From the NCBI RefSeq assembly GCF_000309385.1, contig NZ_JH976537.1:2535866-2599865 (forward strand): DNA of 64,000 nucleotides. Reading direction: 5' to 3'. This stretch comes from Nodosilinea nodulosa PCC 7104 (GTDB lineage: Bacteria; Cyanobacteriota; Cyanobacteriia; Phormidesmidales; Phormidesmidaceae). The notes below the pieces were generated by a model. It did no database searches, was not told where the DNA came from, and saw only the letters and a program-made list of their open reading frames with translations. Below, piece by piece: positions 54,385-58,892 of the stretch (positions within the stretch are counted from its first letter, which is position 1; each line of letters starts with the position of its first letter). The translations under genes were made by a program, and so were the position numbers.

Positions 54385-54646
54385 ATAGGTTTTTGCGACG
54401 CTCCGCTACCCTATGTTGGACATGGGTTGTTGGCTAAAGCCAAGCCTACCGCTGGGGACATTTCGATTGTCCCCAGACCCCCTCGACCAGGGCCGTGCCG
54501 CCGCCCTGGACCCAGCGGAAAGGATGTATCGATGGGCCAGTTTAAACCTCTGTTTTGCGCATTGGCCTGCTGGTAACCGTAATGGGTCTGAGCCATCAAC
54601 CTGTAGGGTGCATCCGCGCAGCGATGCACCATATTTGGGGTCTGTT

Positions 54647-55615
54647 ATGAATCAAGGGTGGGTTTACACCGATCGCATTAACAAAGCCGACACTGGTCTC
54701 TCGGTGCTCGACTTCTATAGCGATCGCTATTGTCACTCGACGCAGGCAGAATGGCGCGATCGCATTCTCTCGGGCCAAATTTGCCAGGATGGCCATCCTG
54801 TAGCTCCGGACGATCGCCTTCAGGCGGGGCAAACTTTGGCCTATCATAGGCCACCGTGGCAAGAGCCCGAGGCGCCGCTGGGGTTTAAGGTGCTGTACGA
54901 GGATGAGGATCTGGTGGCGATCGCCAAGCCCGCTGGCCTGCCCGTGCTCCCCGGCGGCAACTTTCTCACTCACACGCTGCTGCACCAGCTAAAGCTAAAG
55001 TACCCCGAGAATACCCCCATCCCTGTGCATCGGCTGGGGCGGGGCACCTCGGGGGTGATGGTGCTGGGCAGGTCGCCCCTGGCGCGATCGGTGCTCAGTC
55101 GCCAGCTGCGCGAATCTACTGCGGCGGCCTGCGATCCTCAAGCTCCCCACCCGATTCGCAAGACCTACCGCGCCCTAATTGGCCCCAGCAATTTGCCGGA
55201 TACCTTTACGCTGACAACGGCGATCGGCAAGGTCAATCATCCCGTCCTGGGGTATGTGTACGCCGCCAGCCCAACCGGCCTGCCCGCCTACAGCGATGGC
55301 AAGGTGCTGCACCGCACCCCAACCTCTACCCTTCTGGAAGTCACCATTCGCACCGGGCGCCCCCACCAAATTCGCATCCACCTGGCCGCTGCCGGATTTC
55401 CCCTCTTGGGCGACCCGCTCTATGGGGTTGGTGGAGTGCCCCTAGCACTGGAAGCTTCCCCAAATGGAAAGATTCCAGTGCCAGGGGATGTTGGCTACCA
55501 TCTCCATGCTTACCAATTGAACCTAGAGCATCCCAGGACTCAGAAGGCTATGGAGTTAATTAGTGAGCCTCCAAAGATTTTGCAACATCTCTATTCCACA
55601 TTCCACCAGGCTTGA
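54647..55615 (+). CDS. RluA-family pseudouridine synthase-like protein lacking the catalytic Asp
   Basis: 322 residues from the ATG giving MNQGWVYTDRI; the frame opens at 54413 in repeat DNA. An S4-like N-terminal region is followed by the RluA fold (VLYEDEDLVAIAKPAGLPVLPGG, RPHQIRIHLAAAGFPLLGDPLYG). The catalytic motif reads HRLGRGTSG (128-136): Gly131 replaces the invariant Asp of HRLDxxTSG, with codon GGG in the DNA. A similar change is known to me in some plant organellar family members. It may be catalytically altered or act as an RNA-binding protein. Confidence 0.88.
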   Translation: MNQGWVYTDRINKADTGLSVLDFYSDRYCHSTQAEWRDRILSGQICQDGHPVAPDDRLQAGQTLAYHRPPWQEPEAPLGFKVLYEDEDLVAIAKPAGLPVLPGGNFLTHTLLHQLKLKYPENTPIPVHRLGRGTSGVMVLGRSPLARSVLSRQLRESTAAACDPQAPHPIRKTYRALIGPSNLPDTFTLTTAIGKVNHPVLGYVYAASPTGLPAYSDGKVLHRTPTSTLLEVTIRTGRPHQIRIHLAAAGFPLLGDPLYGVGGVPLALEASPNGKIPVPGDVGYHLHAYQLNLEHPRTQKAMELISEPPKILQHLYSTFHQA

Positions 55616-56297
55616 GTCAACACTTAGATCTTCATTGGATGCCTTGAATCTGTAATCGTACTTAGCCAGGGCCTTGCCAAAGAATAGGTTCAAATGTACC
55701 ATTATTTTATAGTTCAATTGAACTATAGGGTGTGTCGCCATATTTCCCTTTACTTCATCTCCTATCACAAGGAAAAGTGCATTATGACCCCCTATACAAG
55801 ATTTAAAGATGCTTCAGAGGATAATCAGGGCCGCGGCTGTAGTACCGATTCTTCGGTTACTAAGGCAAAAGAGTCATACGATCGACGAGCCGAGGATGCT
55901 GAAGCTACTTTACGAGACAAGCAAGCTAGCGAGCGAGCGTCTTACAGAAATGCTTGATCTTCTAAGAAGTTAGCTAGTGACTCACGGTTCGCTTATTTTT
56001 TCTTAGTGTTCCATGAGTTAACCAAACACTATATGTATAGCCCAAAGGTATGTTTGCCAGTTACCTCAATTAGGTGATTAAAGATCCACAAGGTGTGCGT
56101 TTAGCAATACCCTTGATTAAGGGCTAACAACCATATTCCACCATAATCTGAAAAGTCGTTTCAAAACGAGCGAACCGAGAGTTTTAAATAGTCTGGTTAA
56201 AGATTCAATAAAGATAGTCGATAAGGCTATAAAAGTGTCCTGATTTATTATTTTTATTGTGTATATGGAATCGGCAGTTAGTTTTGGAGCCGATACC
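55616..56297. other. AT-rich stretch with one candidate small gene
   Basis: The base composition drops sharply after the RluA-type gene. Apart from the 57-codon frame at 55784, the sequence from 55958 to 56297 holds no frame with coding character. It has AT-rich inverted segments (for example GGGCTAACAACC and AAAGTCGTTTC) but nothing I can assign. It is probably part of the same transferred segment as the TIR pair. Confidence 0.4.
55784..55957 (+). CDS. Possible small hydrophilic protein
   Basis: 57 residues starting MTPYTRFKDASEDNQGRG, very hydrophilic, with a charged helix KAKESYDRRAEDAEATLRDK. AAGGA lies ten bases before the ATG. The frame is open further upstream to 55694. I do not recognise it. 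The composition is AT-rich and the case for coding is weak beyond the ribosome-binding site and continuous charged helix. Confidence 0.35.
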   Translation: MTPYTRFKDASEDNQGRGCSTDSSVTKAKESYDRRAEDAEATLRDKQASERASYRNA

Positions 56298-56471
56298 ATG
56301 TCCTTTGATGATTGTCTTGACAAGGCTAGAGAGCTCAAAAGGCAAGGATGCAATAATGAGGATATACTACAAATATTGATGCAGTACTGTAAGGCTGCTA
56401 GCGAAGCTGAGCGTGCATTAAAGGAACTGCAGGCAGAAGAACGCAGAAGATTTAATTCCAACGAGTTTTAG
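56298..56471 (+). CDS. Small helical protein of unknown function
   Basis: 57 residues from the ATG giving MSFDDCLDKARELKRQGCNN; an earlier ATG at 56259 adds 13. The sequence is a clean amphipathic helix pair (DILQILMQYCKAASEAERALKELQAEERRRF). It is convergent with the coiled-coil gene of the TIR pair, ending 30 bases from it. A role in that system, for instance as an antitoxin or adaptor, is conceivable only from position. An antisense frame over the same DNA looks like a shadow. Confidence 0.45.
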   Translation: MSFDDCLDKARELKRQGCNNEDILQILMQYCKAASEAERALKELQAEERRRFNSNEF

Positions 56472-56501
56472 CTTACCTTTCTATGAGCAAGAATGATCGT
56501 A

Positions 56502-57530
56502 CTATTCTTGCTCATAGAAAGGCAGCTGAGAAATCAAATAATCAATGCAATCACTTGCGAGTTTTCTGCTAGCGGCATCAAAACGTCCAGACATATCTCT
56601 ATCAATAGCATCCTTGATTAAGGAAAATGCTGCCGCATAAACTCGGTGATCAAAAACCAAAGGAATTTCAGGAGAATCCAATATATCATGCCTTCCCCAT
56701 TTCAGGCAATGAGAAATTTGCTCTAAAAACTGATATATGGAAAAGCAAAAATAACTAACCTTCTCAGGATTTGTGCTGCTTTCAATGTCTGGGAAAGCCT
56801 TCAACGCCTCGCGGCCAAAGCGCTTTGCTAAAGCCTTTCGAGTTCTGTCAATCCAAACGGCAATTCCGGCTGACTCTTCGAGGTCTTGAATGAAATCTTC
56901 AAGAATTTTTAACTCGCTTTGCTTGCATCTTCTTTCCTGAACAAGCTTCTCTATAGCGCTAGGATTTAGCAATTTTTCGCTCTCAATCCTAAGGCTTTCA
57001 ATCTTCTTGACTAGATTTTCTTTGCCCTCTTCTAAAAGACTTTTTGCAGCGGAGTGAAGCTTATCTAATCTGTAGTTGAAATCATTTAAAGAATGGATTT
57101 CCTGTTTTAATATTGTAAATGCATTCTGCTGGGTGGTGCTCAAATATCCTTTTTTGTCGAAATTTTCTATTAGTCTTAAGTCAGAATTAACTTGCTTGAT
57201 TTGTTCGGAATCCACCTTTAGGATTTCTAGTGGTCGCCTCTCTAGATGCCTGAATATCGCACCACCTGATAAATCATTGGCACTCTTAATTGCAGACACC
57301 AGCATGTCAATAGAATTTTGGTCTAAATTATGGTTGATAATATCCCCGATATGGATTTCGGAAGCCTGTCCTACGGTAACGCCATATTTTCCAAGCTGGA
57401 TAGCTGCGTTATGAGGGTTTTCAATCAAATCACATCTAAGCTTCTGAATAGTCTCCTCATCTAAACTACTATCTAAATAATTGGAGTCATCATAGGATTC
57501 TGAACTTTTCATGCTGCACCACTGAAGCAT
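56502..57530 (-). CDS. Coiled-coil protein with I-x-I-G-D motif, TIR partner
   Basis: 342 residues, no recognised family. The N-terminal part has VTVGQASEIHIGDIINHN (about 51-68), a short beta motif of the kind found at interaction interfaces in bacterial conflict proteins. A long coiled coil (about 105-215; LEEGKENLVKKIESLRIESEKLL) follows, and a helical C-terminal domain with DRTRKALAKRFGREALKAFPDIE. It is AT-rich. It lies 184 bases downstream of the TIR gene on the same strand. The TIR protein ends with a similar NIRIGDNYND, suggesting the two interact. Confidence 0.6.
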   Translation of the reverse strand: MLQWCSMKSSESYDDSNYLDSSLDEETIQKLRCDLIENPHNAAIQLGKYGVTVGQASEIHIGDIINHNLDQNSIDMLVSAIKSANDLSGGAIFRHLERRPLEILKVDSEQIKQVNSDLRLIENFDKKGYLSTTQQNAFTILKQEIHSLNDFNYRLDKLHSAAKSLLEEGKENLVKKIESLRIESEKLLNPSAIEKLVQERRCKQSELKILEDFIQDLEESAGIAVWIDRTRKALAKRFGREALKAFPDIESSTNPEKVSYFCFSIYQFLEQISHCLKWGRHDILDSPEIPLVFDHRVYAAAFSLIKDAIDRDMSGRFDAASRKLASDCIDYLISQLPFYEQE

Positions 57531-57714
57531 TACAGAAGTACGGATATAGTCAACGCCGAACTTCTATTATCATTTTGCTTTTAAGCAGGGAACTTGAGGA
57601 TTATCCTAATCCTTATTTTTGATTACCTGTAATCAAATTTTCGCAGACAGGTTGGTTGTCAATGAAAACAAATTAAGCTCTGGCAGGATTTTGTGCGCCG
57701 CAACAGCTAGGCAG

Positions 57715-58326
57715 TCAGTCATTATAGTTATCACCAATACGAATATTTTTGGCTTTATCAATCTTGGTATTATTTTTTCCAAATTGATAAGTTACGTTGT
57801 TACTTGATCCCGCTATGTTGCCATCCCCCGAGATCAAAATGCTTCTTTCTGAATTGCCGCCGACTGAAATACTTCGATCACTATTTTCTTTGTTTTGCTG
57901 AGGATTCTCAAAGGGTTCCCGATTGCTTCCATCATTAGCTAGAACTGAGTTCAAATCCCGAATGAGAGAGATGATACCCATAACGTAATCTTGCTCTGTA
58001 GTCAAATTCCTGTAGTGCAACTGCTTGAGTTCTGCTGGAACTTCACAGGGTGAAATTAGCAGAGGAATTATAAGCTTTTCGAGTGTTAGAGCAGTCTCCC
58101 ATTCCCATTCCACATATTCAGACACCACGGCAGCAGGAGTTAGTAAAACTACCACTGCGTCTACGGCGCGCAGCGCTGCTCGAAGCTGTGTCTTTAAAAC
58201 CTTGCCACCTTCCATGGCTTCAATGTCGCGCCAAATCTGAAATCCTGCTTGTTCTAGCTCTGTTTTCAGGCGGGCGGCAGCGGCTTGACCGTCTTTGAGC
58301 GCATAAGACAGAAAAATGGTACCCAT
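57715..58326 (-). CDS. TIR-domain protein
   Basis: 203 residues. A TIR domain (about 1-135) opens with GTIFLSYALKDGQAAAARLKTELEQAGFQIWRD (box-1-like) and continues AVDAVVVLLTPAAVVSEYVEWEWETAL, where Glu77 is the likely NADase Glu. The tail (about 150-203) is low-complexity, beta-prone and Ser/Gly/Asn-rich (SDRSISVGGNSERSILISGDGN), ending NIRIGDNYND. TIR proteins in bacteria often deplete or process NAD+ during phage defence. There is no fused sensor domain, so the adjacent coiled-coil gene may supply the signal. Confidence 0.85.
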   Translation of the reverse strand: MGTIFLSYALKDGQAAAARLKTELEQAGFQIWRDIEAMEGGKVLKTQLRAALRAVDAVVVLLTPAAVVSEYVEWEWETALTLEKLIIPLLISPCEVPAELKQLHYRNLTTEQDYVMGIISLIRDLNSVLANDGSNREPFENPQQNKENSDRSISVGGNSERSILISGDGNIAGSSNNVTYQFGKNNTKIDKAKNIRIGDNYND

Positions 58327-58487
58327 AGGGACTAGCCTATAGAAAGATCATTGGTTCGTTCTACTTATTCCAAGATCTCAGGGAAAACACGGGTTAACGT
58401 TAAAGTAACACGTAACCTAAGCAAAGGTTGCTCAGGTCAGGATTTTTTGATCTTTAGTCAAAAAGTTACAGTGGTTCTGGCTTTTCT

Positions 58488-58892
58488 TCAGCGCGATCGC
58501 ACCATCAGCAGTTGATTGGACTGGGTAAAGCCGTACTTTTCGTAGAAAGGCTGCATTTCGGGTGTGCAAAAAAGCTGAATGCACTCCACCTCAGCAAGCT
58601 GAGGATGGGTGGTGATGTGCTCAATGAGTTTGGCGCCTAGTCCCTGGCCGCGATAGTCTGCCGCCACAATCACATCGAACACGATCGCCCGGTACACCCA
58701 ATCCGTCAGCACCCGGCAAAAGGCCGCTAGCCGCTGCGCCTCGTCATTCCACAGGCCAAAGAGCAGGTCGCTGTTGCTCAGCAGAGTGGGCACATCGTCC
58801 AGGGCACGTTCTTTGCTCCACCACTCCTGCAAGTACATCTGGTGAAGCTGCTCCACCTGAGTTGGGGTGAGCTGATGAATAAGGGTAAGCAT
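58488..58892 (-). CDS. GNAT-family acetyltransferase
   Basis: 134 residues. The acetyl-CoA loop is visible as YRGQGLGAKLIEHI in FDVIVAADYRGQGLGAKLIEHITTHPQL, with FCTPEMQPFYEKYGFTQ at the C-terminus. It resembles the small acetyltransferases related to YjdJ/ArgA-like GNATs; substrate unknown. The ATG start at 58892 gives MLTLIHQLTPTQVEQLHQMYLQEWW. It is monocistronic, next to the AT-rich TIR segment but with normal GC content. Confidence 0.88.
   Translation of the reverse strand: MLTLIHQLTPTQVEQLHQMYLQEWWSKERALDDVPTLLSNSDLLFGLWNDEAQRLAAFCRVLTDWVYRAIVFDVIVAADYRGQGLGAKLIEHITTHPQLAEVECIQLFCTPEMQPFYEKYGFTQSNQLLMVRSR

Follow-up and report, generated by a model that had tools for sequence, protein, structure and literature searches.

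The window analysed here is a 64,000-nucleotide stretch of the genome of the cyanobacterium Nodosilinea nodulosa PCC 7104 (contig NZ_JH976537.1, positions 2,535,866 to 2,599,865 of the forward strand). It contains two adjacent minus-strand genes, one encoding a protein with a Toll/interleukin-1 receptor (TIR) domain and the other a protein termed here the partner. Both proteins carry sequences of effector-associated domain 10 (EAD10), and the C-terminal domain of the partner is predicted to have the phycobiliprotein fold. Together with two small genes of the opposite strand, s1 and s2, the pair forms a block that is present in some related genomes and absent from others. The features are as follows, with positions numbered from the first letter of the window.

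58326..57715, minus strand: TIR effector gene, 203 amino acids (aa), with TIR_2 at residues 4-111, a linker and a C-terminal EAD10 core.
57721..57810, minus strand: EAD10 core of the TIR protein, residues 173-202, from Pfam PF19954 and alignment.
57530..56502, minus strand: partner gene, 342 aa as listed, with EAD10, a long helical coil and a phycobiliprotein-like domain.
57288..57470, minus strand: EAD10 domain of the partner, residues 21-81, from Pfam PF19954; predicted alpha-beta-alpha.
56955..57209, minus strand: long helical stretch of the partner, about residues 108-192 (helices 107-125 and 131-185 of the 341-residue AlphaFold2, AF2, model).
56517..56951, minus strand: phycobiliprotein-like (globin-fold) domain of the partner, about residues 194-338, from Pfam, AF2, Foldseek, VIA and profiles.
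56476..56522, no strand: hairpin of 20 pairs between the convergent s1 and partner genes, overlapping the partner stop codon; terminator-like.
56298..56471, plus strand: s1, 57 aa, convergent with the partner gene; helical hairpin in the AF2 model.
55784..55957, plus strand: s2, 57 aa, of the same family and strand as s1.
55616..58487, no strand: inserted block, between a pseudouridine synthase gene (54413-55615, plus strand) and a GNAT gene (58488-58892, minus strand).

A preliminary description of this DNA had placed the two genes at these positions on the minus strand and had drawn attention to the stretches NIRIGDNYND, at the C-terminus of the TIR protein, and EIHIGDIINH, at residues 58-67 of the partner; the open reading frames agree on all counts. 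The AT-rich composition that it reported is also found, the GC fraction being 0.40 for positions 55700-58326 vs. 0.58 for the window. Comparison with the homologue in a congeneric genome, G015 (genomes are designated by G numbers), suggests that the true start of the partner is the second Met, at 57512.

The TIR protein is the candidate effector, and TIR suicide modules are already known. Its match to TIR_2 (PF13676) has an expectation (E) value of 2.5e-21 (Pfam). Glu75, in the stretch VEWEWE, aligns with the Glu of the SARM1 sequence WVHKE, which is presumably the catalytic Glu, and is conserved in the TIR proteins of G015 and G005 as well as in a fusion protein of G022. Thus, on sequence grounds the TIR keeps a Glu of catalytic type, and from its alignment with SARM1 the cleavage of NAD+ on clustering is the default expectation.

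The I-x-I-G-D motif common to the two proteins had been taken as undescribed. As judged from Pfam matches, it is the core of EAD10 (PF19954), a domain named by Kaur et al. (2020; available sections of PMC7159879). Partner residues 21-81 match the EAD10 model at E 5.6e-11 with 42.8 bits, above the cut-off of 24.1. A search of the 6.9 Mb genome at E<=0.1 yields only two EAD10 matches, which lie in the adjacent TIR and partner genes and score 24.4 bits (the TIR tail) and 45.0 bits, both above the cut-off. The same genome has 21 TIR_2 matches at E<=0.001, 20 of them above the Pfam cut-off, and this TIR alone carries EAD10. The likeness that was first seen extends over a longer EAD10 match in both proteins. 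The five residues by themselves are weak evidence: [ILVF]x[ILV]GD occurs in 13 of the 142 window open reading frames of at least 100 aa, and the score of the 27-residue alignment of the TIR tail with the partner is reached in 12 of 5000 shuffles.

Under the EAD principle, the effector and the control protein encoded by adjacent genes carry the same EAD, and elsewhere the two are fused directly (available sections of PMC7159879 and PMC8195603). Both arrangements are found here: EAD10 is on the control protein and on the adjacent effector, and the TIR is fused directly in other genomes. A search with the partner of 57 genomes, its own included, gives matches in five, that in G027 through the C-terminal domain only. 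In G015 both genes recur at this site, each with the motif; the G015 partner is 67% and the G015 TIR protein 73% identical to those of the window. Ratios of nonsynonymous to silent differences (pN/pS) relative to G015, where silent sites are close to saturation, are 0.21 for the TIR gene, 0.27 for the partner gene (0.19 for its phycobiliprotein-like part), 0.23 for s1 and 0.27 for s2. In G005 there is a TIR gene with the tail, followed by the first 46 residues of the partner and then the end of the contig. In G022, at the same site, a single gene runs from TIR straight into the coil and C-terminal domain of the partner, and EAD10 is gone. A similar fusion of TIR, coil and domain in G181, from another family, likewise lacks EAD10. 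The earlier proposal that the two genes belong together, for which their co-occurrence in other genomes was to be sought, is upheld by the intact pair of G015, the G005 pair that is cut short where its contig stops, and the fusions of G022 and G181. The motif is also placed as one would expect of a motif that couples two proteins.

This relationship extends to other proteins that bear the phycobiliprotein-like domain. Twenty-five of these were scanned for EAD10 at E<=1, 0.1 and 0.05, the identical proteins of G116 and G172 being counted once. The 25 leave out an interrupted gene (G015:C47), a broken copy (G269), and ordinary phycobiliproteins of G263, G099 and G355, so called by Pfam for G355 and by eye from the sequence for G263, that of G099 not having been read. 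EAD10 is present in seven proteins, all without a fused effector (G000, G015, G227, G319b, G116 = G172, G256 and G336), and in none of the 13 with one. The fused effector is TIR in seven proteins (G022a, G022b, G181, G175, G127b, G319a and G114), trypsin in three (G027, G127a and G035b), and in the others CHAT (G035a, slightly under cut-off), phosphorylase (G052) and DUF4062 (G275). Five proteins have neither EAD10 nor an effector (G085, G198, G330, G354 and G382). The EAD10 protein of G227 bears a ParA/MinD-like ATPase. The split pair with the motif, compared with the fusion without it, points to the motif as a substitute for a covalent link between TIR and partner, as the EAD principle predicts. 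The EAD10-type tail is not confined to TIR proteins: a caspase encoded in the G319 cluster has one like it at its end (Pfam EAD10 E 9.1e-4, 19.7 bits, under cut-off).

Besides the EAD10-tailed caspase, the G319 cluster (G319:C1:2558000-2571000) includes an AAA ATPase (possibly of MoxR type), a vWA gene, a protein with FHA, phycobiliprotein-like domain, TIR and EAD9, a protein with EAD10 and the domain, a 402-aa protein with EAD10 and an nSTAND1 gene. The genes for the EAD10 protein and nSTAND1 are again paired in G116, and G336 has an EAD10 protein similar to this one. In G256 (L031:3961-6465) an EAD10-NB-ARC-TPR protein, that is, a NOD-like receptor (NLR) with an N-terminal EAD10, is encoded approximately 2 kb from a gene with EAD10 and the phycobiliprotein-like domain.

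The C-terminal domain of the partner is predicted to have the phycobiliprotein fold. Foldseek gives 495 matches to the AF2 partner model at E<=10, the best with E 4.7e-3 and probability 1.00. By title, 46 of the best 50 of the 495 are phycobiliproteins or phycobilisome parts, and the remaining four of the best 50 are smURFP, two chains termed 'Bacterial fluorescent protein' and one globin-coupled sensor. The smURFP and 'Bacterial fluorescent protein' chains are presumably phycobiliprotein derivatives, and on that basis 49 of the best 50 are of phycobiliprotein type. The 50 matches listed by VIA have Z scores of 13.9-16.2, where helical models may reach Z 13 by chance; most cover model residues 165-336 or 193-336, and they are of the same protein kinds. 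A plain coiled coil as the whole of the partner was rejected on these Foldseek and VIA matches of the C-terminal domain. The earlier statement that neither protein carries a recognised sensor domain also has to be revised, given the fold predicted for the partner C-terminus.

Support for the fold that is independent of the AF2 model comes from the phycobiliprotein family PF00502, which matches seven of the 24 domain proteins scanned (G000, G319a, G275, G114, G175, G198 and G085), two above the cut-off (G114, 25.8 bits over a partial stretch, and G198, 24.5 bits) and five under it. Searched with a profile of 11 domains, the PDB yields phycobiliprotein alpha chains (best E 0.0087), and the genomes yield a phycoerythrin-alpha-like protein of G263 (E 1.2e-5, named by eye) and a PF00502 protein of G355 (E 5e-4). 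The window domain resembles phycobiliproteins in its predicted fold over ~140 residues and in weak, repeated profile matches. It differs in being set on a long coil with a docking domain, and domains of its type have no Cys in the column of the chromophore-binding Cys of phycobiliproteins. In 26 domains (G035b, which has no residue there, and G355 excluded; the near-duplicates G116/G172 and G275/G269 included) this column holds Phe in 24, Ile in one, Val in one and Cys in none. The window domain has Phe in the column and a Cys one residue on. Two of three PDB alignments agree on this register; the third, shifted by one, puts Cys in the column in G000, G015, G022a and G227. It looks as if the usual site for pigment has been lost, with less certainty for the window's clade: with Cys in none of the 26, covalent bilin binding at that site is unsupported, and the one-residue doubt in register applies to that clade.

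In relatives, the domain is part of TIR, trypsin, CHAT-like, phosphorylase and DUF4062 proteins. A pattern scan of genome contigs gives nine named loci, cyanobacterial by title; the number is small because the scan rests on one 9-residue pattern. A tblastn search of plasmid and phage collections with the partner has no match at E 1e-5, and among viral contigs compared with the domain alignment 20 stretches fit the pattern, none of them a relative. Family-wide searches of 42 and 36 genomes reveal no further domain places.

One adjacent small helical protein had been described beside the pair; it is present, but there are two, s1 and s2. The AF2 model of s1 is a helical hairpin with a confidence score (pLDDT) of 88. 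A search with the s1 fold gave 53 matches at E<=10, the best with E 0.9 and none informative. A profile built from 14 small proteins encoded next to domain genes was run on 388 genomes and has matches in 15 at E<=0.01, of which 13 at E<1e-5; the weak matches of G288 and G315 (E 0.002 and 0.004), whose contigs lack a domain gene, are left out of the 13. Eleven of the 13 have both genes on one contig. Each of the 23 matches in these eleven is encoded on the strand opposite the domain gene and beyond its 3' end, at a distance of 21-95 bp for the near small protein and 309-557 bp for the far one; the one additional match, 180 bp away in G085, shares its frame with the near protein. The matches of G005 and G208 are at a contig end, in an orientation that places the domain gene beyond it. 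The genome-level overlap of the small family and the domain has a Fisher p of 8.6e-13, for a profile trained on such neighbours. A second profile, from four small proteins of another kind, matches five places in four of the 388 genomes. Four of the places are the training cases, which converge on a domain gene, and the fifth is in G323, at a point where the sequence ends within the match. Convergent small open reading frames were seen by eye, without a chance control, after the domain genes of G198, G354, G114 and G382; that of G027 is doubtful, and the G035b sequence is too short. Since the small proteins are tied to the domain whatever the effector, they are best explained as its regulators, and most simply as inhibitors.

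A further type of convergent small protein, of 99 and 94 aa (L036:4784-5083 and L055:4272-4556, both minus strand), is found 3' of phycobiliprotein-like genes. The two proteins, from G198 and G354, are similar to each other by eye.

The pseudouridine synthase gene that flanks the block was looked for in 26 genomes of the genus and is present in 23. In 12 of these the site is closed, the synthase being followed by GNAT after 35-212 bp (between match ends). The s2-s1/partner-TIR block follows the synthase in G000, G015, G022 (as the fusion) and G005 (across a contig break), and the other seven genomes have neither arrangement in the stretch examined. GNAT forms the far border in G000 and G022. 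Thus, from the presence or absence of the block at the synthase site across the genus, s2, s1, partner and TIR are present or absent as a group, and in G000 and G022 they are one insert. In G001 (L130:2713-4011) a gene with two apparent TIR stretches, the second judged by eye, follows the pseudouridine synthase. From this TIR gene at the position of the cassette, it is possible that the synthase site is an insertion hot spot.

The interpretation favoured here, with moderate confidence, is that of a horizontally moving four-gene conflict cassette, of the abortive-infection or suicide type, made up of an EAD10-coupled TIR, a phycobiliprotein-like switch and two small regulators. The TIR would be the effector, presumably hydrolysing NAD+ or making a signal derived from NAD, and the EAD10 core at its C-terminus may dock on the N-terminal EAD10 of the partner by a homotypic beta-strand contact. 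The partner would be the control component, in which the long coil joins the docking domain to the phycobiliprotein-fold domain; the latter probably binds or senses something and, with the coil, sets the oligomeric state. A trigger would then bring the recruited TIRs together. The proteins s1 and s2 may be regulators dedicated to the phycobiliprotein-like module, with inhibition as their most likely effect.

A number of points weigh against this interpretation. The TIR tail on its own (residues 173-202, E 9.7e-5, 22.8 bits) falls slightly under the EAD10 cut-off of 24.1 (Pfam) and covers only the core, about positions 33-64 of the 77 of the model. In G227 the TIR gene adjacent to the EAD10 partner shows no EAD10, and neither does the caspase gene near the partner in G116. 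With respect to the fold, the AF2 partner model was built from a shallow set of nine sequences and has a mean pLDDT of 76 (71-92 per ten-residue block over 201-340), and Foldseek has no match to it at E<=0.001. The partner itself matches PF00502 at E 4e-4 with 20.8 bits, under the cut-off of 22.2 (Pfam), and 17 of the 24 domain proteins scanned have no PF00502 match. Against 11 phycobiliproteins of the same genome, profile-profile comparison gives a probability of 60% (E 8.7e-5), and the domain profile gives E 0.0016 and 0.016 for two and noise for nine. The small-protein association was trained and tested on overlapping loci, and no small gene was recognised at the domain genes of G227, G022b, G181, G035a and G052. 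At the far border, no GNAT gene was found in G015, where a pentapeptide gene is next, and in G005 two other genes precede GNAT; the cassette interpretation does not rest on this border, nor on the chromophore column. Pfam finds no MoxR, vWA, VMAP or iSTAND in the cassette or the inserted block, the only parts of the genome searched for them. In relatives, the domain gene is found near AAA and vWA genes (G319) or a VMAP gene (G275).

A physiological switch for stress or cell fate, in which the phycobiliprotein-like domain reads the state of pigments or photosynthesis and the TIR executes a stress response, is rather unlikely. The resemblance of the domain to antenna proteins and the cyanobacterial titles of all nine scan loci are in keeping with it, and GUN4 has been proposed as a sensor of this sort on TIR, caspase and trypsin proteins (available sections of PMC7159879). 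The window's clade also has a Cys one residue from the chromophore column and might bind pigment, although the aligned column itself has no Cys in any of the 26 domains. However, the patchy presence, the low GC and the closed sites of relatives are more in line with a mobile cassette than with a housekeeping sensor.

Unlikely as well is the proposal that the EAD10 core is an amyloid signalling motif, which acts by templating in the manner of bacterial amyloid signalling sequences (BASS) or RHIM, rather than a folded docking domain. A short motif rich in Gly, Asn and Gln at the C-terminus of an effector and near the N-terminus of its neighbour is the BASS layout; BASS motifs occur with TIR domains too (available sections of PMC7889193), and a similar layout with NLR partners is described in the amyloid-signalling literature (available sections of PMC7889193, PMC8086366 and PMC9815663). 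In G256, EAD10 is N-terminal on the NB-ARC-TPR protein close to the partner homologue. But the partner EAD10 is predicted by AF2 to be alpha-beta-alpha with a small strand pair, and the partner is not an NLR, having no NB-ARC or NACHT match (Pfam). The window pair thus resembles BASS/Bell-NLR pairs in the placement of a short common motif, and differs from them in that the effector is not a Bell domain and the partner not an NLR.

It is improbable that the domain is an immune decoy, which would imitate an antenna subunit and trip the TIR when bound by cyanophage NblA-type proteins that dismantle phycobilisomes. The predicted fold would suit a decoy, and cyanophage Ma-LMM01 encodes an NblA that is transcribed early in infection (available sections of PMC4103541). 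The s1 and s2 proteins share the size and helix-loop-helix layout of NblA as described in the same source. However, the small proteins have no sequence similarity to NblA: s1 and s2 were rejected as NblA proteins, with no match to PF04485 at E<=1 and an hhalign probability of 0.1%. NblA is also not among the best 50 of the 53 s1 fold matches. Finally, that the genes are unrelated neighbours with a coincidental IGD motif has a negligible probability, since, common as the bare motif is, the only two EAD10 matches of the genome (E<=0.1) are in adjacent genes and the pair and its fusions are found in other genomes.

The putative four-gene conflict cassette resembles the EAD-coupled conflict systems (Kaur et al., 2020; 2021), in which a small non-catalytic domain is present on effector and control protein of adjacent genes and the same effector type is elsewhere fused directly to the control protein. 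It differs from these in that its control protein consists of a coil and a phycobiliprotein-like domain, not VMAP, iSTAND, GAP1 or TPR-GreA/B-PIN, and in having convergent small proteins and no MoxR/vWA. The GUN4-linked TIR, caspase and trypsin proteins also carry a photosynthesis-related domain on the same effector types (available sections of PMC7159879), but that domain is of another family. The window TIR domain matches ThsB-type models of Thoeris. The Thoeris partner, ThsA, consists of SIR2 plus a sensor domain, whereas the window partner has no SIR2 or SLOG match in Pfam or PADLOC at E<=1 and the window TIR carries an EAD; membership in Thoeris was rejected on the former ground. EAD10 and its coupling rule are already known, and for the phycobiliprotein-like control domain in conflict systems no description was found in the open-access literature searched: 'phycobilisome' and 'globin' do not occur in the main texts of PMC7159879 and PMC8195603, nor 'phycobil' in PMC10907252, and no title among those listed by the literature searches deals with such a domain in conflict systems.

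The split form with the motif and the fused form without it, at one chromosomal site, provide a natural experiment for the EAD principle. The locus would also add a control domain with the fold of a photosynthetic antenna to bacterial conflict systems, in a cassette compact enough, its two mini-proteins included, for transfer to laboratory strains and testing there. A confirmed cassette would link the folds of photosynthesis proteins to bacterial immunity, and if the domain senses phage action on phycobilisomes, light harvesting would be tied directly to immunity. A broader extrapolation, which is decidedly speculative, is that the phycobiliprotein-derived domain might serve cyanobacterial immunity in general as a control module, linked through EAD10 or by fusion to effectors of the TIR, caspase, trypsin, CHAT and phosphorylase types. 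As a decoy of the antenna it would detect phage attack on light harvesting, and cognate convergent helical mini-proteins, a separate pair for each clade, would keep it silent.

At the nucleic acid level, a scan for promoters and terminators is at chance level. The region of the hairpin between the s1 and partner genes (56465-56530) folds with -36.5 kcal/mol. The same junction was folded in seven relatives; that of G275 is strong (-18.8 kcal/mol), and the other six have values between -3.3 and -13.4 kcal/mol.

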